DNA of 64,000 bases from Chloroflexota bacterium (lineage in GTDB: Bacteria; Chloroflexota; Dehalococcoidia; Lucifugimonadales; Lucifugimonadaceae): NCBI GenBank assembly GCA_002730555.1, contig PCAM01000005.1:149799-213798 (forward strand). Direction: 5' to 3'. How positions within the stretch are numbered: the first letter of the stretch is position 1; every line of letters starts with the position of its first letter. This document shows, piece by piece, positions 1-12,350 of the stretch. The translations under genes were made by a program, and so were the position numbers. The notes under the pieces were generated by a model. The model did no database searches and was not told the origin of the DNA. It saw nothing but the letters and a program-made list of their open reading frames with translations.

Positions 1-96
1 GTGGTCATTCCACTGCAGTCGCACTACGCCACCGGCGTTGTATGACGAGTGTGCGGCCGGCGAAGTTCGAACACGCTGCGGGAGCGAAATTAACAA

Positions 97-1473
97 TTGC
101 CAGATATTCAGGACATCTACGACCACATCGATGCGCACCTGGACGAATCGATGGCGCTGCTGGCCGAACTCGTTCGACAGCCCAGCGTCTCGGCGCAGGA
201 CCTAGGGTTCGATAAGGCGCCGGGGCTGGTCAAAGACGCCCTGGATTCGGTCGGGCTGAACACCGAAATCGTTCCCGTGCCTAACGACGGGCATCCTTCT
301 GTGTTCGGGTCGAAGTCCGGCGCGGGCGAGCACACGCTGCTGTTCTATACGCATTACGACGTACAGCCAGCTGACCCGCTGGAGCTGTGGGACTCGGAGC
401 CGTTTGAGCCTTCACGCCGGGACGGCCGAATCTACGGGCGCGGCACGTCGGACGACAAAGGCAACATCGTCGCACGCCTCGCCGCTGTTCGCGCCTTCAA
501 CGAGGTGTGTGGAGGGCTGCCGTGCAACCTGAAGTTCTTTGTGGAGGGGGAGGAAGAGATCGGCAGCCGCAACCTGCGCGGGCTGATCGAAACCCGGGGA
601 CAAGAGTTCAAGGCGGACGCCTGTATCTGGGAGGGCGGCGGCCGGAATCTTTCCAACGACCCTTTCATCTACCTCGGATTGAAGGGCGTTCTCACCATCG
701 GGATGTCGGTCAAAAAACTGCACGGCGACGCCCATTCGTCCTATGCGCCCATCCTCCCGTCTGCTTCGTGGCGACTTCTCCAAGCGCTGAACAGCATCAA
801 GGACCCCTCGGACGACCGCTGCCTGATCCCGGGTTTTTACGACGACATCAGGCCAGCGACAGACGTCGAGAACGCCGCCCTTGCCACGCTGCCTGACGAG
901 GTGGAAGAGTGGCGAGAGACGTTTGGGGTGGACGGTTTCGTCGGCGGTATCGGCGGCGAGGACTTGCGGCGCAAGCTGCTATTCGAGCCAAGCGCCAACA
1001 TCAACGGCTTTGAGAGTGGTTACAACGGTCCTGGCATGAAGACGGTGCTGCCGGCCGAGGCAAGGGCCAAGATGGATTTCCGCCTAGTACCGGACATGCG
1101 CCCGGAGGACATCTTCAGAAAACTGCGCGGCCACCTGGACCGCCAGGGGTTCGAGGACATCGATCTCGAGTATCTGGCCGGAGTGAACCCCGCCCGGACG
1201 CCGATCGACTCGCCGTGGGTGCGGCTGGTGGCCGAGACGGCCGAGGAGATCTACGGCCGGAAACCGGTGATCGCCCCGACCATGGCCGGGACCGGGCCGA
1301 TGTATGAGTTCGCCGACATCCTGGGCATGCCGATCGCAACGTCCGGGGTCGACCACCCGTCACACAAGATCCACGCGCCTAACGAGAACATCACGGAAGA
1401 GGATTTTCTGTACGGGGCGAAGCACGCCGCTCTGATCATGCAGCGGTTTGGAGAGCGCGGGATGGACGGATGA
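97..1473 (+). CDS. M20 family metallopeptidase (dipeptidase-like)
   Basis: Zinc-dependent exopeptidase or amidohydrolase of the M20/M28 superfamily, probably a cytoplasmic dipeptidase that releases amino acids. Of 458 residues, the metal-ligand motifs are in family order: THYDVQ (His near 86, Asp near 88), GRGTSDDKGN (Asp near 120) and EGEEEIGS (acidic ligand and general base near 150-154). KMDFRLVP lies in the dimerisation/lid segment, and the C-terminal GTGPMYEF and DHPSHKIHAPNE carry the last ligands. The start is TTG, with GGAG 12 bases upstream; no ATG lies in frame near it. Length is normal for the family. Exact substrate cannot be read from sequence. The gene stands alone, followed by a repeat-filled spacer. 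Confidence 0.9.
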   Translation: MPDIQDIYDHIDAHLDESMALLAELVRQPSVSAQDLGFDKAPGLVKDALDSVGLNTEIVPVPNDGHPSVFGSKSGAGEHTLLFYTHYDVQPADPLELWDSEPFEPSRRDGRIYGRGTSDDKGNIVARLAAVRAFNEVCGGLPCNLKFFVEGEEEIGSRNLRGLIETRGQEFKADACIWEGGGRNLSNDPFIYLGLKGVLTIGMSVKKLHGDAHSSYAPILPSASWRLLQALNSIKDPSDDRCLIPGFYDDIRPATDVENAALATLPDEVEEWRETFGVDGFVGGIGGEDLRRKLLFEPSANINGFESGYNGPGMKTVLPAEARAKMDFRLVPDMRPEDIFRKLRGHLDRQGFEDIDLEYLAGVNPARTPIDSPWVRLVAETAEEIYGRKPVIAPTMAGTGPMYEFADILGMPIATSGVDHPSHKIHAPNENITEEDFLYGAKHAALIMQRFGERGMDG

Positions 1474-1523
1474 AAGGGAAGGGTGGGGCAGCTGAGACCA
1501 TCCTGTCGTCAGCATGCTTCCAC

Positions 1524-1666
1524 CGTCATCCCGAACTTGGTTCAGAATCCAGTTGAATTGCGGGATCGTGACTAGTCAGCGGAACGGTTTTCGAGTGTTG
1601 GATTTGAGGTTCGAAGTAGCGTCGGTCGCGAGCATGAGCAGATCCTGGATCGAGTTCAGGATGACA
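1524..1666. repeat. Nested-palindrome intergenic element, family A copy 1
   Basis: The left end reads CGTCATCCCGAACTTGGTTC and on. The right end at 1641-1666 reads GATCCTGGATCGAGTTCAGG and on to ATGACA. The two ends are inverted relative to each other and each is itself an imperfect palindrome. Length 143 bp. Related copies occur at 4692, 36526, 42568 and 45103. Confidence 0.7.
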
Positions 1667-1711
1667 TGTGATCGGTGATTGGTAACCGAAATCTGACCAT
1701 GTGCTCGCACG

Positions 1712-1750
1712 TCCCCTCTCCCAGCCGGGAGAGGGTTAGGGTGAGAGGGA
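1712..1750. repeat. CCCTCTCCC hairpin repeat, family B copy 1
   Basis: CCCCTCTCCCAGCCGGGAGA followed by GGGTTAGGGTGAGAGGG. It is a short perfect stem-loop (CTCTCCC/GGGAGAG) with a GGGTGAGAGGG tail, and the same motif recurs in at least nine other spacers of this window. Confidence 0.7.
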
Positions 1751-1992
1751 CCACCAGAGGCGGGTAGTGCGCAAGCCCGTCTGCCATCGATCAAGTTAAA
1801 GAAACGGCGCTCACGCCTATATTCCTGTCCAGAAATTCAGAGCGCCCGGGCGGTGGGGCAAGTGTTCAGTGCAACGGGGCTCTTCTGAATAGTCCTTCGG
1901 CGGGAGGACTCCCTCATCCTGCACCCGTTCGGAACGGTTCAGGGCAGGCTCTTCTCCCGACCGGAGGAAAGGATTGATCGATGTCCTCAACC

Positions 1993-2910
1993 CTAGAACA
2001 CCGCTATCGGGTTTGCCGGGGAACCTGTTCCGCCGATGACGTTTAGCGGGTTGATGGTGATCATGAACTCGTACCGGTTTTCCTCTGCGCACACGTCAGC
2101 CAGCGGTTCCAGCAGCGAGTTGTCCACCAGGGATACGCCGTAAGCGAAGATTGCCCCGTGCATCGTCCACGGGATGTTGTACTCGTTCGGAGTCGCATCC
2201 ATCATGTCCCACACGATCAGCGAGACGTCGTTGTGCCTGACAAACGGCAGGCAGGACGCGTGCAAACCGGGTCGTTCGGCCCCCCGGGTCCACATGCCGC
2301 CGTTAGTCGCAGCAAACTTCTCTCGACCGCTGTAGACGCACAGGGCGTCGCCGGGCCGGATCTCGACGCCCTGTTCCGCGGCGATCTCCTCCAGCTCCCA
2401 GCCGTGTACCGGCGAGTTCAGCGTCACATGTGCCCCGCCCCGGTGCTTCACCACGTCCAGCAGTACGCCTCGTGTCAAGATGCCGTCCGACCACTCGTCG
2501 ATCGTGCCGTACCGCACGCCATCGAACTGAATGTTTTCGTCGGGATCTTTGCCGTCCCAGCCGCCGTTCTTGTCCCAGACGTGGCAGAGGGCGTCGATGT
2601 GAGTGGTCGCCGTGCCGTGATATGCGACGCCGTAGTAGTCGGTCGCGGCGCCACCACCCGGCGGCCGATCGCCCTTCATCAGGAACTGGACGGCGGGACG
2701 TGGATTTTCGGGGGACGGCGTTACCGGGAAGGGCCGGCTCAGGGAAACGGTACGGCCCTTTTTGACCGTTGCAACGGCCTCAAGCCGCTTGGCGTCATCG
2801 ATCAGGTTCATTGCCCCCGCGGGGCCCTTGTCACCCCAGCGACCCCAGTTGCGGCGGTCCTTCAGGTAGGAGTCGATTTCTGCACGAGTCGGAATGGCGT
2901 GATCGGCCAT
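1993..2910 (-). CDS. Cyclase family protein (kynurenine-formamidase-like)
   Basis: Member of the cyclase/metal-dependent hydrolase family (Pfam PF04199), which includes bacterial kynurenine formamidase and isatin hydrolase. These are cytoplasmic enzymes that hydrolyse amide or lactam substrates. The 305 residues contain the family signature as YHGTATTHIDALCHV, where the His and Asp residues are the expected metal ligands, followed by a WDGK segment. The ATG start at 2910 opens MADHAIPTRAEID. Length fits the longer cyclase subgroup. The family is often found in aromatic catabolism, but no such genes adjoin it here, so the substrate is open. It is transcribed alone and convergent with the M20 gene across a repeat-rich spacer. 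Confidence 0.85.
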   Translation of the reverse strand: MADHAIPTRAEIDSYLKDRRNWGRWGDKGPAGAMNLIDDAKRLEAVATVKKGRTVSLSRPFPVTPSPENPRPAVQFLMKGDRPPGGGAATDYYGVAYHGTATTHIDALCHVWDKNGGWDGKDPDENIQFDGVRYGTIDEWSDGILTRGVLLDVVKHRGGAHVTLNSPVHGWELEEIAAEQGVEIRPGDALCVYSGREKFAATNGGMWTRGAERPGLHASCLPFVRHNDVSLIVWDMMDATPNEYNIPWTMHGAIFAYGVSLVDNSLLEPLADVCAEENRYEFMITINPLNVIGGTGSPANPIAVF

Positions 2911-3075
2911 GATGCGGTCTCCCGATAATAATTCTGAGATCTATTCGTGGCGCATCGTACTCGCGTGAAAGCGGTCCGGGCGCTATTCAAGGGGTCACGC
3001 CGTCGGCGGTAAAGTTGTTAGACGTGCGATACATCAACGTCCCTACCAAACCCCACAGGCCTCACGCCGCGTGCC

Positions 3076-3267
3076 GTGCTCGTCGCCCTTGCGTTATTCC
3101 TGCTGCTGGCGCGGTCGGGCCCTGGTGGGTATTCCGGAGAGGGGACGGTGGAGCGGGCCAACCATGCCGTACGTGTGCTGGTGGATCGGATAGACGACGG
3201 GCTCGATCCGTGGTTCACGGGGTCGAGTAGGTCGGGGACGGTGAGCCGTTACGGCGACTACAAATGA
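3076..3267 (+). CDS. Possible small membrane-anchored protein
   Basis: A 63-residue frame from a GTG start. It begins with a strong hydrophobic segment (VLVALALFLLLA) followed by a soluble tail with charged residues (RANHAVRVLVDRIDDGLD). The frame is open back to 3022, so the start is uncertain. It lies just upstream of, and in the same direction as, the RNase D gene. I recognise no family. The hydrophobic anchor and reasonable tail make it a candidate, but the ribosome binding site is not obvious and a chance frame in GC-rich DNA is a real alternative. The rest of 2911-3366 shows no other coding signal. Confidence 0.3.
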   Translation: MLVALALFLLLARSGPGGYSGEGTVERANHAVRVLVDRIDDGLDPWFTGSSRSGTVSRYGDYK

Positions 3268-3366
3268 ACTGACAAGGTGGCACACAGGGATGTCGGCGCA
3301 ACACGTTGCCATGTATCCGGCGACCTCCGCTTGTGCGGTTTCGGCGGTTCGCCGCATACTCGCGGC

Positions 3367-4524
3367 GTGCTAATCACAGATTCCCGCGACCTCGCCGAAT
3401 TTTGCAGGCGGCTTGAGGGCGCTCCTTACGTTGCTGTAGACACTGAGTTCCTGAGAGAGAAGACCTACTGGCCGAAGCTTTGCCTCGTGCAGGTCGCGTA
3501 CGATGACGCGGCGGCGGCGATTGACCCGTTGACCCGTGACATCGACCTTGAACCACTGTTTGAGCTGATGGACGATCAGGACGTACTGAAGGTGTTCCAC
3601 TCGGCGTCGCAGGACATGGAAGTGTTCTTCAGCGTCTCCGGACGCGTGCCGCTCCCGATCTTCGACACCCAGGTCGCGGCGATGGTGGCCGGATACGGCG
3701 AGCAGGTCGGTTACGCCACTCTAGCGTCGCAAATTGCCGGCGTGACGCTGGACAAGTCGTCGCAGCTCACCGACTGGTCGCTGCGACCGCTGTCGGACCG
3801 CCAGATCGAGTACGCCCTTGGTGATGTCACGCACCTCTGCACCATCTACGAAGAACTCGACGGTCGGCTCGAGGAAACCGGTCGGGGGTCCTGGGTGTCG
3901 GAAGAGATGGCGGCGCTCACCGACGTCTCGTCCTACAAAGCCGACCCGCGAAAAGCGTACCGACGGGTCCGCATCCGCCGCCCCAACCGCAAGGCCCTCG
4001 CCATCCTACGCGAGGTCGTCGCTTGGCGGGAGGAGACGGCGCAGCGTAGGAACCTGCCGCGCAACTGGGTTATCCGGGACGACGCGCTGGTCGAGATTTC
4101 GACGCATGCGCCACGGACCGTGGATGACCTGAGTCGAGTGCGCGGGCTGCGCGGCAACGCAGCGAACGGCCGTGATGGCGAGGCGCTGCTGGACGCAGTG
4201 CAGGCCGCGCTGGATATGCCGAAAAACGAGTGGCCGAAGATCCCGCCGCGACGGACCCCGATCCGCGGGCACGAGGCGCTGGTGGCGTTGCTCCAGACGC
4301 TGTTGCGGCTGCGCTGTGAGGACCACGATGTCGCCCCGAAGCTGGTCGCCACGCGTGACGAACTGAACCGGATTGCAACGACGAACGACCAGGACCTACG
4401 TCCGCTCAAAGGCTGGCGACGCGAGCTGTTCGGCAACGATGCGCTGGAGCTCAAAGCCGGACGACTGGGACTGACCGGTGATCGCGGGCAGGTGCGCGTG
4501 CTTAAACCGGATCAGCTGGAGTAA
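3367..4524 (+). CDS. rnd: Ribonuclease D (3'-5' exoribonuclease with HRDC domain)
   Basis: Trims 3' ends of tRNA precursors and other small RNAs. Of about 385 residues, the N-terminal DEDD exonuclease domain shows VDTEFLREKTYW (Exo I, Asp and Glu), HSASQDMEVF (Exo II) and the Exo III region YALGDVTHL. The C-terminal half has an HRDC-type helical domain (ILREVVAWREETAQRRNLPR). The frame opens earlier at 3277, but the conserved domain begins right after the GTG at 3367 (VLITDSRDLAEFC), and the upstream 30 residues look untranslated, so I place the start there. Length is close to E. coli RNase D. It is followed by a long repeat-containing spacer. Confidence 0.9.
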   Translation: MLITDSRDLAEFCRRLEGAPYVAVDTEFLREKTYWPKLCLVQVAYDDAAAAIDPLTRDIDLEPLFELMDDQDVLKVFHSASQDMEVFFSVSGRVPLPIFDTQVAAMVAGYGEQVGYATLASQIAGVTLDKSSQLTDWSLRPLSDRQIEYALGDVTHLCTIYEELDGRLEETGRGSWVSEEMAALTDVSSYKADPRKAYRRVRIRRPNRKALAILREVVAWREETAQRRNLPRNWVIRDDALVEISTHAPRTVDDLSRVRGLRGNAANGRDGEALLDAVQAALDMPKNEWPKIPPRRTPIRGHEALVALLQTLLRLRCEDHDVAPKLVATRDELNRIATTNDQDLRPLKGWRRELFGNDALELKAGRLGLTGDRGQVRVLKPDQLE

Positions 4525-4550
4525 GGTCGTTGAGGGCGGATTGGCATTCT

Positions 4551-4593
4551 CCTTCCCCTCACCCAGGCCCTCTCCCGCAAGGGGAGAGGGGGC
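4551..4593. repeat. CCCTCTCCC hairpin repeat, family B copy 2
   Basis: CCCTCACCCAGG followed by CCCTCTCCCGCAAGGGGAGA and GGGGGC. This is a clear stem-loop just downstream of the RNase D stop codon; it may act as a transcript-end hairpin, but it lacks a T-run. Confidence 0.7.
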
Positions 4594-4691
4594 AAGTCTC
4601 GGCGGTTAGCAACTTGTTGCCGTAAGGGAGTATGGCAATACGTCCCCCACGGTCATCCTTCAATCACCTCGGAAACGAGACGCACCTTCCC

Positions 4692-4820
4692 TGTCATCCT
4701 GGGCATATATCAGCGTTGTGGTGATCCTTCAGCCTATGGCGCTGGAGTTCGCAGGCGGTTCCGCTCATTGAACGACGTTGGCGCTGTATTGCCCGATCTT
4801 GAATCAAGTTCAGGATGACA
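4692..4820. repeat. Nested-palindrome intergenic element, family A copy 2
   Basis: The left end is TGTCATCCTGGGCATATAT and the right end (4795-4820) is GATCTTGAATCAAGTTCAGG and on to ATGACA. Length 129 bp, close to the other copies. The left end belongs to a CCTGGGCATA subtype that is also seen at 45103. Confidence 0.65.
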
Positions 4821-4993
4821 ATATCCACGTGCTGTTGGCAGCGGGCGGGGCGAGCGCCGCCCCTACAATTTGCCAAATGCGCTGCAGGGGCGGATTAGTA
4901 TCCGTCCGAAGGTGGGCTGCTGCCCACCCTTCCCGTCTGAGACAATGGCGCACGATTACCCGATCATCTGAATACCCGGGAGAACGCCCACAC

Positions 4994-5758
4994 ATGGAGC
5001 CTCGCGTTCATGTCAGCGACGAGATCCTCGATCGATTTCGCAAGGCCACTTCGGCCACCGTTTACAGCGCCGTGTGGCGGCACCCCGTGCAGGGGAGCGA
5101 GTGGTTTGCGTCGGCCAACTGGCAGCGCTGTTTGATGAAAAACGTGCTGCCGATGACGCACGGCGAAACGATGGTCGGCCGGGCGCGGACCCTCAGGTTT
5201 GTTCCACCAAGACCGGACCTGCTGAAAATCACGCGGCAGGGGGAGAACTCGCCGGAGTACATCGCGATGGGGACCTGCGGGCCGGGAGACATCCTGGTTG
5301 TGGAGGCCCACGCCGCGGAGCCGGAAGCCAACATCGTCGGCAACATGAAGGCCCGTCAGCTCTGGCACAACGGCGCGGTCGGGATCGTCACGGACGGCGG
5401 TATCCGCGACCTAGACATGATCGTGTCCGACTACGGCCTGTCGGTGTTCGCCGGCCACCGTTCGCCCGCCGGCAACCTGCCGTGGATCGAGGCGTACGAG
5501 GCCAACGGAGCGATCAATTGCGGCGGCGCGCTCGTGTTCCCGGGTGACGTGATCGTCGGGGACGACGACGGCGTTGTGGTCGTCCCCTGCCAGCTCGCCG
5601 AGGGCGTGATCGACTGGATTGAGGAGCAGGACAAGGCCGAGGAATTCGTGATCGGATTGATCGACGAGGAGAAGGCGCCGCCCGGCCGCTACTATCCGAT
5701 ATCGGAGGAGACCAAGGAACGTTACCGGCGCTGGGCCGAGGAGCGCGGTGGCGGTTAG
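4994..5758 (+). CDS. RraA family protein
   Basis: Member of the RraA / demethylmenaquinone-methyltransferase-like fold (PF03737), which contains the RNase E regulator RraA and HMG/CHA-type aldolases. Of 254 residues, the characteristic glycine-rich stretch DGGIRDLDMI gives the Arg-Asp pair used by the aldolase members, and GTCGPGDILVVEAHA and FPGDVIVGDDDGVVVVP are typical core strands. The ATG at 4994 (MEPRVHVSDEILDRF) follows a GGGAG-like site and matches the usual N-terminus; the longer upstream frame crosses repeats and is rejected. Aldolase-like activity on a 4-hydroxy-4-methyl-2-oxoglutarate type substrate is more likely than RNase regulation, but this is inference. No pathway neighbours. 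Confidence 0.85.
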   Translation: MEPRVHVSDEILDRFRKATSATVYSAVWRHPVQGSEWFASANWQRCLMKNVLPMTHGETMVGRARTLRFVPPRPDLLKITRQGENSPEYIAMGTCGPGDILVVEAHAAEPEANIVGNMKARQLWHNGAVGIVTDGGIRDLDMIVSDYGLSVFAGHRSPAGNLPWIEAYEANGAINCGGALVFPGDVIVGDDDGVVVVPCQLAEGVIDWIEEQDKAEEFVIGLIDEEKAPPGRYYPISEETKERYRRWAEERGGG

Positions 5759-5792
5759 GTGATGGGTCTATGGGTGAGGTTCTACGACAGGG

Positions 5793-5826
5793 CTTCTCCC
5801 TCACCCTCACCCGCTGGGAGAGGGGA
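5793..5826. repeat. CCCTCTCCC hairpin repeat, family B copy 3
   Basis: CTTCTCCCTCACCCTCACCC then GCTGGGAGAGGGGATT, in the spacer after the RraA-like gene. It is more degenerate than the other copies. Confidence 0.55.
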
Positions 5827-6002
5827 TTAAACGACGAGCCTGATTGCCGGGAGTTCTCTGGCACATGGAGACGATTTTTCGTCCGAGCATCTGCCGAAAA
5901 CGATGGAGTTGGGACGCCCGCGTGTGCTCGTGCTGGAAGCCATCGCCTACCGGGGCGACGGAATGCATCGCCGTCAGCCTGGTTCGCCGGGCCTTCCCCA
6001 GC

Positions 6003-6764
6003 CTACGGCGCCGTGAGCGGTTCCTCGGACTCCAGCGCGCCGTGCTCGGCCGCCAGTAGCCCCTGCTCGTCCATCTGCCGGGCTGCGTAAACGATCACGC
6101 CCGCCGCGTACTCCAGGCTGACCTCTGATGTGTTCAGCATGAAGTGATACAGATACGGATCGACCGGGCTGGACTCGAACGCCTTTTCAAAATACCTAGC
6201 CTGCGCCGAATCCGAGTGCTCGATCAGTTCCCTGGCGGCTTCTAGGCTCGGCAACTGCTCACGTTGCTGGATGCGGCGTGCCCGATCCTCTGATTCGCCG
6301 AGGAGTCCGACCCTGAGAACGCCGGTCGTACCCCGCAGTATGGCGCCTCCGCCCCTGCTCAGGATGACGGCATCGCCGGCTGCTGCGATCTCACGGATCA
6401 CTTCGGCGGTCGTGTCGATGAACTGAGACTCGTGAAGCTCCTCGGCGCGTGTCGCCGGGGCGGCCTCAAAATCACGATACGGTCGTGAAACAAGGACTTC
6501 CATGCCGGGGCCGAAGTAAGGGTCGCCCGCTCCGGCGCTTCCGGTTCGTTCCAGGGTGCGCTGGATGAATGAGATGAAACGATCACCCCGTGATGGGAGG
6601 CGGCGCTCAGAATCCTGGACGGCTTCAACGGTCGCGCCCACTCGTCGACCGATTTCGGACAGAAGCAATCGGTCTACAAAATCCAGGCCTAGAGCCCGGG
6701 CGACCAGTCGCCCCACTCCGGGGCCACCTGCTCCGACCCGTCCTTCGATAGTAATAACTGGCAT
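6003..6764 (-). CDS. Cytidylate kinase-like family protein
   Basis: Belongs to the cytidylate-kinase-like P-loop family (PF13189), distinct from housekeeping Cmk. The 253 residues begin MPVITIEGRVGAGGPGVGRL, where the P-loop region is GRVGAGGPGVG: it aligns with the GxxGxGG start of the family but lacks the usual Lys-Ser/Thr of Walker A (family members normally have SGGGxxG-x-x-(I/V)A). A DFVDRLLL segment follows, as in Cmk-like proteins, and later LSRGGGAILRG and RVGLLGESEDRARRIQ match the family's NMP-kinase core. The physiological substrate is unknown. It is transcribed away from a decayed phage fragment. The unusual P-loop makes activity uncertain; fold assignment is firmer than function. 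Confidence 0.8.
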   Translation of the reverse strand: MPVITIEGRVGAGGPGVGRLVARALGLDFVDRLLLSEIGRRVGATVEAVQDSERRLPSRGDRFISFIQRTLERTGSAGAGDPYFGPGMEVLVSRPYRDFEAAPATRAEELHESQFIDTTAEVIREIAAAGDAVILSRGGGAILRGTTGVLRVGLLGESEDRARRIQQREQLPSLEAARELIEHSDSAQARYFEKAFESSPVDPYLYHFMLNTSEVSLEYAAGVIVYAARQMDEQGLLAAEHGALESEEPLTAP

Positions 6765-6838
6765 TTGACCCCTCCCTCGTTTGTGAGATCAGCTGTCGTC
6801 TGAAGGTTAACAGGTGACGGACGGAATTTCGCTGCTGG

Positions 6839-7540
6839 TTGAAGGCTGCTGGGCGTTGCCGAAATCAGGCAAGCCAACGATTCTCCAATAAGAATATATG
6901 TTCTAATTCTATCTGCAAAACTATAACAAATGCAGGCGCTGGCACAGATCATTCCGGGTATCCAGGGATGTGGCCATGGAGAGTGCGAGGGAGCCTGAAC
7001 GGGGAGGGGCGATTGACGCAGACGGCGGGGGTGGGGATGGATGGTGCGCTGGAACGCGTGAACGGCGTAACGGCACGCCGGAGTTCAGAACCCGGCCTGG
7101 TGACGAAGTGGCTTTCGGTACGGGCGCTGGAAACCGATGACCCGGAACCCGGAAACCTGAACGGGAACGGCCCGGGCGAAACGCTGACATTTGTGGCGTC
7201 GAGCCTGGGTGAAGATCGCGCCGGTGATATGACGCTGGCACACGGGTCGGACAAATTCACGGTCGCCGGCGGAGACACCCACGTCGAGAACGAAAACAGC
7301 CTCGTCATCGGCCACTCGTCTCAGTACGCCCACGACGCTCTCAGCCTTGGAGAGTTTCAGATGCTGGGGCTCGGCGCGCTCGACTCTGAGATGGTTCTGG
7401 GCACATGGTCGAACGACTCGAACGGATTCACGCTCGGGTTTAAAAAGTCACGCGATACAGCATCGGGAGCAACGACCTTGTTGCGGATGGCGATGCCATC
7501 TTGAAGTTGACCGGCTACGCCGTCAATGCCCGGGCGGAAT
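6839..7540 (+). pseudogene. Remnant of phage tail-fibre-like protein, frameshifted
   Basis: The convincing part is about 7170-7540. It reads GETLTFVASSLGEDRAGDM, then SLVIGHSSQYAH, then FQMLGLGALDSEMVLGTWS and GFTLGFKKSR. From memory this follows the pattern of tail-fibre proteins that carry FQVLG..DSS..LGRWS and KSR-x-x-T-I-G-S-N segments. After KSR the frame runs into junk and stops at 7502. The minus-one frame continues YSIGSNDLVADGDAILKLTG, exactly the expected next segment. Restoring one G at about 7454 would give KSRGYSIGSN with correct spacing, so a single-base deletion is the simplest lesion. The first 100 residues are unrecognised and the true start is unknown. The gene would be cut off by the convergent gene ending at 7543. 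Confidence 0.6.
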
Positions 7541-7542
7541 GC

Positions 7543-8037
7543 CTATTTTGCCGGGATCTCCTCGATGCGGATGATGTGCTTTGACGACTCGTAGTACCAG
7601 ACGCTGACGCGCATTCCGGGGCGCAAACGGCGGAGCGCCTTTAGCGCCAGACCGTAGTGCACGCCATCGATTACGATCAACCCGAGGTGCGTACCGCGCC
7701 CGCCAAACCACTGCCAGTTCCACCCCGTGGCGTCCACCACTCCCACGCCTTCACCGGCCTTCACCGCCCGGGCCTGATCACGCGTGAGGACGACCGTCCG
7801 GCGGGCCACCAGGTAGAGCAGCCACAGGATGAAGATCCCGAACGGAATCCCGAATAACAGGTTGTCGATCCCAAACGCCCCGAAAACCCAGGCGGCGGGC
7901 GCGAACACAACGCCGATCAGCCCCAGAAAGCGAAACACCTCCATGTCCAGCGGCGACTGGATGTGGGGATCACGCGGGATTACTTCCTCGTTAGTCGGCT
8001 CGGGGGGTGTCTGGAACGGTTGTGGAGAGTTGCCCAT
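7543..8037 (-). CDS. Hypothetical membrane protein with two transmembrane segments
   Basis: 164 residues from ATG at 8037 (MGNSPQPFQTPPEPTNEE). A Pro-rich cytoplasmic-looking N-terminus is followed by two hydrophobic helices around residues 37-80 (FLGLIGVVFAPAAWVFGAFG and FGIPFGIFILWLLYLVA). A soluble C-terminal domain of about 75 residues has mixed strand character (VKAGEGVGVVDATGWNW, LGLIVIDGVHYGLALKALR) and ends IIRIEEIPAK. I recognise no family. The frame stays open upstream to 8262, but that section is Arg-rich and unlike a domain. It is convergent with the phage relic. The two-helix anchor plus a small C-terminal domain suggests a membrane-surface role that I cannot name. Confidence 0.65.
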   Translation of the reverse strand: MGNSPQPFQTPPEPTNEEVIPRDPHIQSPLDMEVFRFLGLIGVVFAPAAWVFGAFGIDNLLFGIPFGIFILWLLYLVARRTVVLTRDQARAVKAGEGVGVVDATGWNWQWFGGRGTHLGLIVIDGVHYGLALKALRRLRPGMRVSVWYYESSKHIIRIEEIPAK

Positions 8038-8588
8038 GTGCAACCATTCTAGGGTCGCTAGCTGCACGCCGTCCGTCCCAGGATTGCTATCGGCGAGCAA
8101 TCTTTCCGGGTGACACACCGAGACGAAATATACAGCGCGCCGGGCAATGCTCACCCGCCAAAGATATGGTTGACGAACGTAGGTGCTAATGCGGCGCATC
8201 CGTTTATCAGCCTGCGCTTTGAGGGCGGCCACCCACTGCGATACGGCGTTCGACACGCTCACCTAAGGCGACAACGGCGATGAACAATGCACCTATCAGG
8301 GCGTTGGTGGGCTTCAAGTTGATACGTCCGTACTTTTCAGGTTGTTTTTTCTGGCGGGGAGTCGTCGCAGGGGCGTGATTACCTCGTCCATCACCGGGCT
8401 CCCCTTGCCAGTAAGACGCTCAAAGATCGCTCAAAGGTGCGGGCGAATTTTCGGTTCACCGAGAAACCCCGATGGAAGGCCGGTATCCTTGCCTGCGCGG
8501 ACGGTCTGCTGCGTCGGCTGGATTGGGGCCTTTATGGAAAGCCCCCGCGTCGTTTTAAACAATCTGTGAATCGAGATCGAAGCGCCAT
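8038..8588. other. Intergenic spacer between divergent genes
   Basis: About 550 bases upstream of two divergent genes. None of the repeat families seen elsewhere is obvious. Short open frames exist, but none has a convincing start, composition or family. It presumably contains both promoters; I could not place them reliably. Confidence 0.4.
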
Positions 8589-9365
8589 ATGACACCTGTA
8601 CGTAAAGTTCTTGTTACCGGTTCGGGCGGTCTTATCGGCGGAGCGCTATTCCGCGAATTCGGTGACCGGTTTGAGTTCTCCGGCCTGGACATCGGGCCGT
8701 CCGGTAGCGGGGATGTCCCGATGACGGTTGGCGATCTTTCCGATATGGAGAGCGTGCGGCCGGTTTTCGACGGCGCGGATGCGGTGGTCCACCTGGGCGC
8801 CGATTCAAACCAGAACGCGCCGTGGTCGAGCGTCCTGCCAAACAACCTGATCTCCACCCGTAATGTGTTCGAGGCGTGCCGCGATGCCGGGGTGAAGCGC
8901 ATCGTATTCGCCAGCTCGAACCACGCCGTCGGAATGCACGAGCTGGACGATCCGTACAGCAGGATACGCGTCGGCGATTACACGGGACTGGACCCCGAAA
9001 ATATCCGACAGATAGACCACACCATCCAGATCCGACCTGACGGACAGTATGGGATCAGCAAGGCGTTTGGCGAGGCGACCGGGGCGTACTACGCCGAGAA
9101 CTTCGGGATGGAGGTGGCCTGCCTCCGCATCGGGACTGTCAATCGCGCCAACCGCCCGACAGAGGTCCGACAACTGGCGACCTGGTGCAGTCACCGCGAC
9201 GTGCTCCAGCTAATCCAGCGTTGCCTGGAGGTTGAGCCGCTCCAGTTCGACATCTTTTACGGCGTGTCTGATAACAAGTGGCGATTCTGGGACATCGACC
9301 ACGCCCGCGACGTCCTCGGCTACGCGCCGCAAGACAACGGAGAGGACTACCGGGACTCGCTCTAA
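8589..9365 (+). CDS. NAD-dependent epimerase/dehydratase, uronate-dehydrogenase-like
   Basis: Extended short-chain dehydrogenase of 258 residues. The N-terminal NAD-binding motif is LVTGSGGLIGGAL, with an Asp (GLDIG) after the second strand that favours NAD. The active-site YGISK supplies Tyr and Lys, preceded by FASSNHAVG with the catalytic Ser. The C-terminal pattern (LATWCSHRDVLQLIQRCLE, then YGVSDNKWRFWD) resembles hexuronate dehydrogenases (Udh), which oxidise galacturonate or glucuronate to aldarolactone, and the length is similar. ATG at 8589 is the only sensible start. It is a single gene followed by a repeat-containing spacer. A role in uronic-acid oxidation is inferred from similarity recalled, not proven. 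Confidence 0.85.
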   Translation: MTPVRKVLVTGSGGLIGGALFREFGDRFEFSGLDIGPSGSGDVPMTVGDLSDMESVRPVFDGADAVVHLGADSNQNAPWSSVLPNNLISTRNVFEACRDAGVKRIVFASSNHAVGMHELDDPYSRIRVGDYTGLDPENIRQIDHTIQIRPDGQYGISKAFGEATGAYYAENFGMEVACLRIGTVNRANRPTEVRQLATWCSHRDVLQLIQRCLEVEPLQFDIFYGVSDNKWRFWDIDHARDVLGYAPQDNGEDYRDSL

Positions 9366-9674
9366 CCGAGGGACGCCGCCCTGGCAACACCTTGTGAGGG
9401 TGTTGCACTTCGTTTGTGAACTCAGGGAATCCGGGGACGTCGTCATGTCAGTAAATGTGTTCGGGACAGACAATGCGCTGGCGTCTTCGGCCTGTGGCGG
9501 AACCCCTCATCCTGCACCTTCTCCCAATTGGGAGAAGGTAACGGTTCGCCCGATCAACCGATAATCAGGTTTAGAACCACCCGCTGATATGATTGCCGAT
9601 GAGGCTCCCTTTCCTGACATTAAAGTTTTGGGGGCCTTTCGTTTTGTAAGCCGAACACGGCCCGGAGCACAGAT
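9366..9674. other. Intergenic spacer with one hairpin repeat
   Basis: About 310 bases. One family B hairpin occupies 9501-9540 (ACCTTCTCCCAATTGGGAGA then AGGT). The remainder up to the tldD TTG start has no other gene and probably carries the tldDE promoter. Confidence 0.5.
9501..9540. repeat. CCCTCTCCC hairpin repeat, family B copy 4
   Basis: CCCCTCATCCTGCACCTTCT and on to CCCAATTGGGAGAAGGT. The stem ACCTTCTCCCAA/TTGGGAGAAGGT is perfect over 12 bp. Confidence 0.7.
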
Positions 9675-11039
9675 TTGACCGTTCGTGACCAGATGCAAGA
9701 CGCCCTCAAGGGGCACGGGGCGGACTTCGTCGAGATCCGCCTGGAAGAATCGGACTCCTCGCGCATCCAGTACAGGGCGCGTGAGATTGAGGAGACCGGT
9801 CGTACCTCCGGACGTGGGGGCTCCGTAAGGGCTGCCGTGAAGGGCGGCTGGGGCTTTGTCAGTTTTAACGACACCGACGATCTCGAATCCCGGGTGAAAC
9901 TGGCGGTCGAGCAAGCTCACGCCGTGGGCGACGCGAAGACGGAACTGGCTGAAACCGAGCCCTCGGTCGCCGACGTGCCGCCGGTGCTGGTGAACGACCC
10001 CGGCAACATCTCCCTGTCTGACAAGAAAGACCGGATGGATCACTACAACGATCTCATCTGGTCCACCCCGGGCATCCAGAGCTCCACCGTGATCTACGCC
10101 GACAATCGCCGCCGTGTCCACTACGTGAACAGCGAAGGCACCGCCGTCGATCAGGAGTTCGTCCACGTCATCTGCTACATCGCTGCGATCGCACGAGATG
10201 GGGGTGATGTGCAGCAGGCTGGGTTCTCTATCGGGAGCCTGGGTGATTACGGACTAACCGAGGGGTTGGACGACGAGATACGGGCCGTCGGAAAGCGCGC
10301 CGTGGATCTGCTAAAAGCCCCGGGGATCGACGGCGGCGAGCGGACGGTGATCTTGGACCCGGTGCTCGCCGGAGTGTTCGCTCATGAAGCGTTCGGACAC
10401 CTTTCGGAGGCCGACCATGTTTACGAGAGCGACCAGCTCAAAGAGATCATGGTATTGGGTCGGCAGTTTGGCCAGCCGCACCTGAATATCGTGGACGGCG
10501 GCGCCATCCCGGGGCTGCGCGGCTCCATGTCGTACGACGACGAGGGCACGCCGACCAAACGCAGCGATCTGATACGAGACGGTGTACTGGTGGGACGGCT
10601 GCACTCACGCGAGACGGCCGCAAAGATGGGCGAAAAGCCCTCCGGCAACGCTCGCGCCATCAGCTTCAACCATCCGCCGATCGTCCGTATGACCAACACC
10701 GTTATCGAGCCGGGTGACGCCTCGTTTGAAGACCTGTTTGAAGGCGTCGACGACGGTGTTTACGTCCGCAACTGGTACGGCGGCATGACCGAGATGGAGA
10801 TGTTCACCTTTTCCTCCGGAGAGGCGTACCGGATCCGAAACGGTCGGATCGAAGAGATGGTCCGACCGGTGAAATTGTCGGGCAACGTGTTCAAAACACT
10901 GCACCAGATCGACGGCATCGGTCGCGACCTCGGCATGAACCAGGGAGGCGGATGCGGCAAGGCCGGACAGAGCCCCCTACCGGTTTCCAACGGGAGTCCA
11001 CATATCCGCATCCAAAATTGCCTGGTATCGGGAGCGTAG
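9675..11039 (+). CDS. tldD: Metalloprotease TldD
   Basis: Catalytic subunit of the TldD/TldE protease, a cytoplasmic heterodimer that degrades unfolded small peptides and matures peptides such as microcin B17. The 454 residues include the zinc motif HEAFGH with first His at residue 237, embedded in VFAHEAFGHLSEAD. Also visible are the N-terminal barrel (AREIEETGRTSGRGGSVRA) and the C-terminal YVRNWYGGMTEMEMFTFS with GGGCGKAGQSPLPVSNG, as in TldD. The start is TTG at 9675 (MTVRDQMQDALKGHG); no better start is in frame. It is followed after 3 bases by tldE, so the pair is one transcript. Length and motif order are normal. Substrate is unknown, since no RiPP precursor is seen nearby. Confidence 0.95.
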   Translation: MTVRDQMQDALKGHGADFVEIRLEESDSSRIQYRAREIEETGRTSGRGGSVRAAVKGGWGFVSFNDTDDLESRVKLAVEQAHAVGDAKTELAETEPSVADVPPVLVNDPGNISLSDKKDRMDHYNDLIWSTPGIQSSTVIYADNRRRVHYVNSEGTAVDQEFVHVICYIAAIARDGGDVQQAGFSIGSLGDYGLTEGLDDEIRAVGKRAVDLLKAPGIDGGERTVILDPVLAGVFAHEAFGHLSEADHVYESDQLKEIMVLGRQFGQPHLNIVDGGAIPGLRGSMSYDDEGTPTKRSDLIRDGVLVGRLHSRETAAKMGEKPSGNARAISFNHPPIVRMTNTVIEPGDASFEDLFEGVDDGVYVRNWYGGMTEMEMFTFSSGEAYRIRNGRIEEMVRPVKLSGNVFKTLHQIDGIGRDLGMNQGGGCGKAGQSPLPVSNGSPHIRIQNCLVSGA

Positions 11040-11042
11040 CCG

Positions 11043-12350
11043 ATGGCCGATCTTTTCCAGTCAGCAAAAGACGCCGGGTTTGACCAGGCCGAGGTTTACC
11101 GAGTCTCCAGCCAGAGCCAGCCGATCCGGTTCGAGGCGAATCGACTCAAAGAGGCCACCCGTCGCGACACATCGGGCGCCGCCTTGCGGGTCATCAAAGA
11201 CGGCAAGCTTGGGTTATCCGCCACTACCGATCCCGCGATGGAAACCGATCTTCCGGCGCGCCTTGAAGAGCTAATCTCTTTTGGGGCCGAAGCTTCTTTC
11301 GAATTGCCAGGACCGTCCAACGTTCCGGAGGTAGATATCTTTGACCCGGCCGTGGAGTCGCTCGCATTCGACGCCATGGTCGAGACCGGCCAAACCCTGA
11401 TCGACGCCGTCCGTGAAGGCTGGCCGGAACTGAACTGCTCCGCCAGCGTTTCGCGTGGGGTGCACAGCCAGAACCTGGTCAACACCGCAGGATTGGACGT
11501 GGGCTTCCGGCAAACGTCCTACTCGGTCGGATTCGGTGGGGAGCTGGTTCGGGGCGACGACATGTTGTCCGTGTGGGAAGGCTTCGCGGCATCCCGCATG
11601 TTCACGGACACGGACTGGATGGTCGAATCCTTGCGTCGACAGCTTGAGTGGGCTCGCAATACCGCCTCGACCCCGACAGGCCAGGTTCCCGTCATCTTTA
11701 CACCGCGAGGCGTGTCGGCCGTCCTGCTCAGGCCGCTTCTCGGCGGTTTCAACGGCAAATCAGTAATGACCGGCAGCTCCCCGATTGGCGACAGGATCGG
11801 CGAGCGCGTGATAGATGAACGGATCTCCGTATTCGATGACCCGACGATCGACGGAGCGATCGGAAGCCGCCCGGTCGACGATGAGGGCATTCCGAGCCGG
11901 CGTATGGCGCTGATCGATCACGGCGTCGTGAGCAACTTCCTGTACGACCTTCAGACTGCCGGCCGCATGAATGCCACCAGCACCGGGGCCGCGGGGCGCG
12001 GGCTTTCGACGCTCCCGGGTCCAAGGACCAGCGTCTTGGACGTTGCGCCGGGCGAGACGCCTTACGACGATCTGTTCCTCGGCATCAAAGAGGGCATCAT
12101 GGTTGAGCGGCTTCTTGGCGCCGGCCAGGGCAACGAGATGGGCGGCGATTTTAAGGCGAACGTCTCGCTTGGATATAAGATCGAAAACGGCAAAATAGTG
12201 GGTCGGATCAAAGACACGATGATCTCCGGTAACGTTTACGACGCTCTGAGCAAGCTGGAAGCCGTATCTGACACGGCAGAATGGGTGTACGGGAGCCTGC
12301 GGGCGCCGGCGATCCGCTGTCTGGGCGTGGAAGTGGCCGCGGCCAGCTAA
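11043..12350 (+). CDS. tldE: TldE/PmbA family protein
   Basis: Non-catalytic partner of TldD, 435 residues. It has the shared N-terminal region (QAEVYRVSSQSQPIRFEANR) and the C-terminal two-stranded fold (GNEMGGDFKANVSLGYKIENG) but no HExxxH, as expected for TldE, which helps to form the closed protease cavity. It begins with ATG three bases after the tldD stop, so translation is probably coupled. The end (CLGVEVAAAS) is typical. It is followed at 50 bases by the acidic HEAT-repeat gene in the same direction, which may belong to the same operon. No lesion seen. Assignment is secure from family features and gene order. Confidence 0.93.
   Translation: MADLFQSAKDAGFDQAEVYRVSSQSQPIRFEANRLKEATRRDTSGAALRVIKDGKLGLSATTDPAMETDLPARLEELISFGAEASFELPGPSNVPEVDIFDPAVESLAFDAMVETGQTLIDAVREGWPELNCSASVSRGVHSQNLVNTAGLDVGFRQTSYSVGFGGELVRGDDMLSVWEGFAASRMFTDTDWMVESLRRQLEWARNTASTPTGQVPVIFTPRGVSAVLLRPLLGGFNGKSVMTGSSPIGDRIGERVIDERISVFDDPTIDGAIGSRPVDDEGIPSRRMALIDHGVVSNFLYDLQTAGRMNATSTGAAGRGLSTLPGPRTSVLDVAPGETPYDDLFLGIKEGIMVERLLGAGQGNEMGGDFKANVSLGYKIENGKIVGRIKDTMISGNVYDALSKLEAVSDTAEWVYGSLRAPAIRCLGVEVAAAS

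Follow-up and report, generated by a model that had tools for sequence, protein, structure and literature searches.

How did a broken piece of a phage-like structural protein come to lie between host genes in the chromosome of a Dehalococcoidia bacterium? The DNA analysed, referred to here as the window, is a stretch of 64,000 nucleotides from contig PCAM01000005.1 of a Chloroflexota bacterium (GCA_002730555.1, family Lucifugimonadaceae); its genome is designated G000, and the genomes compared with it carry similar G numbers. The preliminary description of this locus had noted an isolated tail-fibre-like domain interrupted by a frame change and had attributed it to an old prophage or a horizontal insertion.

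A fused open frame of protease and fibre

Both the domain and the frame change were confirmed. The forward frame 6839-7504 reads ...GEFQMLGLGALDSEMVLGTWSNDSNGFTLGFKKSR, and SIGSNDLVADGDAI carries on in another forward frame, the change lying near position 7453 within the fragment. The motif is recognisable, although its exact letters are FQMLG and LGTWS rather than FQVLG and LGRWS as first given. The domain does not stand alone, however: the frame joins the N-terminal 50-90 residues of a prohead protease to the middle of a tail-fibre-like protein. The features of this place, called scar 2, and of its flanks are the following.

6003..6764, minus strand: left flank, cytidylate-kinase-like gene (PF13189, Pfam); the same kinase lies beside the cassette in relatives
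6962..7225, plus strand: scar 2a, remnant of the prohead protease N-terminus (shuffle z 10.9-21.7 against four relatives; E=1e-11)
7220..7225, no strand: protease/fibre deletion junction, a short similar stretch in both genes of G001, G003 and G005
7220..7453, plus strand: scar 2b, central portion of the tail-fibre-like protein, approximately residues 69-150 out of 459-470 (alignment to relatives)
7453..7542, plus strand: fibre remnant in the other frame, stopping where the next host gene starts (weak match, E=0.002)
7543..8031, minus strand: right flank, protein without Pfam match; it adjoins the cassette in G001 and G005 and lies at the empty site in G002 and G007

Window DNA in the protease part (7000-7227) is 70% identical to G004. 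In G001 the cassette that holds the fibre adjoins the same cytidylate-kinase-like gene, and this comparison showed the first half of the frame to be the N-terminus of the first gene of that cassette. Because a short similar stretch occurs at the junction in both the protease and the fibre gene of the relatives, a deletion between short repeats would be the simplest origin of the fusion, and the stretch at 7220..7225 suggests recombination of this kind.

The intact form of the fibre, which the preliminary description had proposed to look for, was found in three genomes of the same genus. The fragment matched, far better than chance would allow, open frames of 476 aa in G001 (E=9.9e-13), 476 aa in G005 (1.4e-9) and 484 aa in G003 (4.4e-9), with shuffle z values of 14.8, 17.5 and 21.4 for the fibre half against the three intact fibres and only 3.7 against a partial fourth fibre (G004b). 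The alignment to the relatives spans 7220-7468 or slightly beyond. Past the frame change, 9 of 17 residues were identical at the expected place in the G001 fibre, a weak match (E=0.002) from a single comparison. Whether the frame change is real or erroneous matters little, since whole genes are missing on both sides of it.

Among the 100 genomes first searched, the fragment matched four, its own and G001, G003 and G005, and no second copy was found in its own genome. The three intact fibre proteins matched the PHROG tail fiber families phrog_18345 and phrog_9942 (3.5e-29 to 3.7e-21, the better value per protein), whereas the window fragment alone reached none of these, its only match being to an unnamed family (E=0.081). 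Because the gene lies inside the head cassette in the relatives, the protein may be a head fibre. Searches with the fragment alone confirmed no relative in IMG/VR and gave two records of one phage in INPHARED (E=0.5). The fibre profile had three weak matches to PDB sequences (best E=0.01), and its structure prediction was too poor for use (mean pLDDT 34.7).

A second scar upstream

It had also been stated that no other phage gene lies nearby. This does not hold: 3.7 kb upstream of the fused frame, directly before an RNase-D-like gene, lies a remnant of a portal protein, with tblastx matches in G001, G003, G004 and G005.

1996..2910, minus strand: left flank of scar 1, cyclase family PF04199 (Pfam); collinear in G005, G002 and G006
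2926..3353, no strand: interval from the cyclase-like to the RNase-D-like gene, where the terminase-portal site has eroded (G005 about 4 kb, G002 about 240 bp, G006 about 340 bp)
3100..3261, plus strand: scar 1, remnant of the portal N-terminus, residues 21-67 of the 428-aa G005 portal (z 13.6 against G005; tblastn E=1.6e-6)
3277..4524, plus strand: right flank of scar 1, RNase-D-like 3'-5' exonuclease (PF01612 and HRDC, Pfam)

The genome of the window gave no match to the capsid at E<=1e-5 and none to the portal or terminase at E<=1e-3; part of the capsid gave one match of 25% identity (E=0.085). What the locus holds of the gene set is thus two scars only. Rfam found nothing over positions 1-12000.

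Interspersed in the window are also 11 copies, with up to 5 mismatches, of a 25-bp sequence (GTCATCCTGAACTCGATTCAGGATC-like) that may be a small mobile repeat. They include three inverted pairs about 105-116 bp apart; none occurred in 20 mononucleotide shuffles.

1525, 1641, 4795, 13642, 19184, 36525, 36636, 39928, 42567, 42672, 45202: copies of the 25-bp repeat

Intact, partial and empty sites in the genus

The window and G005 are collinear at the DNA level and differ at these two places. Site 1, bounded by the cyclase-like and the RNase-D-like gene, spans about 4 kb in G005, where it holds a terminase and a portal, and about 0.4 kb in the window. Site 2, which runs from the kinase to the next gene, spans about 6.4 kb in G005 against about 0.7 kb in the window; the G005 site includes a cassette of about 6 kb coding for a protease, an HK97 capsid, small proteins, the fibre, a head-tail adaptor, a tail terminator and a small protein. 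Other relatives are empty at the same places: site 1 in G002 and G006 (lengths as listed above), and site 2 in G002 (about 90 bp) and G007 (about 130 bp).

Capsid, portal and terminase occur together in four of the eight genomes of the genus (G001, G003, G004, G005), and none of the three was found in the other four (G000, G002, G006, G007), of which G006 is 79% and G007 86% complete. In the rpoB tree, from which G007 is absent, G000 groups with G002 and G006 (support 94). An RNase D gene follows the portal in six of ten loci examined, in G001, G003 and G005 of this genus and in G010, G029 and G037 of another; it does not in G008, G018 and G110, nor in G004, where the contig ends. Host genes separate the loci, whose neighbours were compared by cross-matching.

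Gene content of the intact set

Profile searches assigned the terminase (phrog_2, 5.8e-43), portal (PF04860, 4.5e-75), protease (PF04586, 2.9e-7), capsid (PF05065, 8.5e-11), adaptor (phrog_442, 5.1e-12) and tail terminator (phrog_17840, 3.7e-8). The capsid profile also matched three phage head or capsid sequences in PDB (1.1e-16 to 1.3e-14); its structure prediction (pLDDT 36.7) was too poor for use. No informative match was obtained for two paralogues of about 93 aa, for a 142-aa protein that other genera also have, for a protein of 102-132 aa and for the small last gene. The claim of phage origin therefore stands, as the intact relatives of the fragment match tail-fibre families and lie near capsid, protease, portal and terminase genes.

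An intein was considered for the longer terminases (L117, L116, L123 and L125, from G001, G003, G029 and G112) but discarded, as their insert proved to be a repetitive linker of tens to more than 100 residues of low-complexity repeats, absent from G005. Several genomes have an extra divergent terminase (G029 C170, G010 C25, G112 C62, G046 C9/C30/C44), perhaps from real prophages.

In ten genomes of the order fetched around the capsid, protease and capsid were together in all ten, with the adaptor recognised in eight, the terminator in four and terminase plus portal in two (G063, G082), where these lie several kb from the capsid on the other strand.

Tail genes in other families

In the family labelled f41 the cassette runs on into a major tail protein (phrog_10528; 1.2e-9, 3.3e-12 and 5.2e-31) and a protein of about 664 aa that we call tail-tip-like from its position and a reading by eye, as it matches neither PHROG nor Pfam. 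This tip protein occurs in 32 of 250 genomes of the order, in seven families other than that of the window. It either closes locus 2 or has a locus of its own: the distance from the capsid is about 590 kb in G070, and G099 has the two on different contigs, the tube gene standing before the tip. Of 11 loci examined, 8 have the major tail gene ahead of the tip; the remaining three are truncated at that point by a contig end. Three f41 genomes have head and tail genes in one cluster (about 39 kb fetched, without terminase or portal).

In the family of the window, terminase, portal and head genes are present and no tail was found. A single tip sequence matched none of its genomes at 1e-5. A tip profile matched 7 of 76, with 13 of 14 rows in one internal stretch (model 78-271), which is taken for a shared domain. 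With neither tail tube nor tail tip found there, the genes identified in this family amount to less than a complete particle. Readings of the small genes before the tip as tail-assembly and tape-measure genes were dropped, having no PHROG support. In some families the tail may be very short: the one candidate for a tape-measure gene seen there, read from the sequence and without profile support, codes for 97-143 aa.

Spread, descent and selection

The capsid was found in 17 of 76 genomes of the family and in 79 of 250 genomes of the order (33 of 97 genera, 12 families), as a single match row in 69 of the 79. Among 400 genomes drawn from the phylum it was found in four, all remote (36-42%). Terminase and portal, searched genome-wide in the family only, matched 24 of 76 (remote and broken ones included) and 25 of 76 genomes, respectively.

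Distances between portals followed those between rpoB genes (r=0.90, 17 genomes), and those between capsids did so with r=0.81 without G056 (13 genomes) and 0.50 with it (14 genomes); in each case none of 9999 permutations was as high. In the family trees of portal and capsid, each genus with at least two rows lay on one side of a branch, although support for g10 in the capsid tree was only 13%. Within the family, the set has descended with its host, G056 excepted. Phage descent is thus retained from the preliminary description, and the horizontal insertion is not, at least as a recent one: the same two sites are found in relatives of the genus, the portal and capsid distances of the family go along with those of rpoB, and the capsid extends to a third of the genera of the order. 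A prophage in a distant ancestor is the likely ultimate origin.

Within the genus, dN/dS was calculated. For the terminase it was 0.12-0.16 (four genomes). In three genomes it was 0.06-0.09 for the capsid, 0.09-0.13 for the portal, 0.09-0.12 for the adaptor, 0.08-0.12 for the terminator, 0.14-0.30 for the protease and, highest of all, 0.27-0.37 for the fibre. Seven cassette genes and the portal together spanned 0.06-0.37, with one value undefined; the first gene of about 93 aa and the last gene were left out. Over nine pairs from the family, the capsid gave 0.04-0.33. Purifying selection acts on every gene counted. Capsid dS was 0.56-0.95, whereas for the adjoining kinase, compared over the same three pairs of genomes, it was 0.96-3.0, which is near saturation; the lower capsid value may reflect exchange between species.

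Related capsids in virus collections

In INPHARED, 487 records had a capsid match, all below 60% identity (24.6% among the matches listed). Scanning IMG/VR gave one remote match with a narrow capsid alignment and 57 with a broader one. Capsids on IMG/VR contigs reach 55-61%, about as close as capsids from other families of the order. In the capsid tree, 13 of the 14 capsids from the family fall together in a clade (support 97) that also takes in five IMG/VR rows. Some IMG/VR entries resemble chromosomal cassettes: in L266 part of the capsid and eight neighbouring genes are 100% identical to G005, and in the tree L260 has the same capsid as G110. Beyond the family, host capsids and IMG/VR rows intermix, with G226 nesting among IMG/VR rows, so that exchange between viruses and hosts is possible there.

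Four entries (L309, L302, L305, L310) look by eye like true phages and belong to another group in the tree, which comprises 13 IMG/VR rows. All four share protease and capsid with the cassette, the capsid being 42-50% identical, and L309, L302 and L310 also have adaptor and terminator in the same order. They differ in that L309 and L302 carry further tail genes and a long tape-measure-like protein (by eye, not by profile), L309, L305 and L310 carry sugar-nucleotide-type genes (by eye), and none has the host flanks seen in the window and G005. G056 is also in this group; its capsid (L058, G056:C29) is longer, virus-like and outside the family clade, and its MAG is listed with 7% contamination.

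A probable gene-transfer-agent-like set and its loss

That the window holds scars of deleted genes is highly probable. The probable explanation as a whole is that both scars derive, by deletion, from particle genes of phage origin that were inherited with the chromosome and whose intact set is like a gene transfer agent (GTA). In relatives of the genus the intact set consists of locus 1 with terminase and portal and locus 2 with the head cassette, each wedged between host genes. Its product would be a small tailed particle into which host DNA is packaged and which passes that DNA to kin. In the genome of the window, a deletion between short similar stretches would have joined protease to fibre, further deletions would have taken the rest of the cassette, and the terminase-portal locus would have been lost too; close relatives show such loss in its clean, completed form, and genomes of the family that hold single pieces of the set would be further stages of the erosion.

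A GTA-type function of the intact set, judged from its genes, seems to us somewhat better than an even bet. Packaging and head genes of phage type lie in chromosomes of the family, and tail genes only in those of seven other families. Because its genes are distributed among several loci, a single packaged piece of DNA would be unlikely to hold the whole set; purifying selection, descent with the host and repeated loss add to the case. Against it stand the lack of a tail in the family, the low capsid dS and the possible exchange outside the family, and the element is known here from its genes alone.

An artefact of assembly or sequencing could account for the frame change. As an explanation of the fragment it is most improbable: the flanks are collinear with other genomes of the genus, two separate scars each match the gene that should lie there, and in related genomes the genes are missing entirely. 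It is more credible, though still unlikely, that the intact sets are defective prophages, from old or repeated insertions, which decay without function, the window holding one relic of them, as the preliminary description supposed. All identified parts are indeed phage genes, phage-like contigs with related capsids exist, and several genomes of the family hold pieces only (a split capsid in G025, a shortened one in G029, partial portals in G014, G104 and G109). Decay without function is, however, hard to reconcile with dN/dS well below 1 in every gene counted, with distances that follow rpoB, and with the same sites and flanks in several species and host genes between the loci; the GC content of the G005 cassette (0.603) is also like that of its flanks (0.594-0.600).

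The set might instead have been domesticated for a role other than DNA transfer, for example as a capsid-based compartment, as a killing particle or as a secreted shell with fibres. We hold this to be rather less probable still. It would suit a family that has kept shell, protease, adaptor, terminator and fibre with no tail tube or tip found, and also the fast evolution of the fibre, which is 47-51% identical where the capsid is 90-92%. Against it, terminase and portal, which are known to act in DNA packaging, have been kept at the frequencies and low dN/dS given above, and tail genes are present elsewhere in the order.

Returning to the GTA-like reading, the closest likeness is to gene transfer agents such as RcGTA of Rhodobacter capsulatus (PMC6821227): their phage-derived structural genes lie in the chromosome, descend mostly vertically, are patchily distributed and are readily mistaken for prophages. 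Here the phylum is another one and the genes are spread over two or three loci between host genes; the likeness is one of description. A wider version of this reading is tentative, with a chance that we put a little short of even: an independently evolved GTA, maybe as old as the order, with genes over up to three loci, would have been lost many times, the window being midway through the loss, and its cassettes would be among the virus entries of IMG/VR.

Gene transfer agents are known from few lineages. The literature on gene transfer agents in SAR202, Chloroflexi, Dehalococcoidia or Chloroflexota and on SAR202 prophages reported no such element in the titles and abstract openings among the matches listed. 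PMC4533152 names SAR202 among groups with newly detected viruses, and in PMC12507015 gene transfer agents appear only in the reference list. If the GTA-like reading is true, the set would be a route of gene exchange in hard-to-culture marine Dehalococcoidia, perhaps including the abundant SAR202 group, and some marine 'viral' contigs would be host genes. The window itself is a concrete example of erosion, with intact, half-lost and empty states within one genus.
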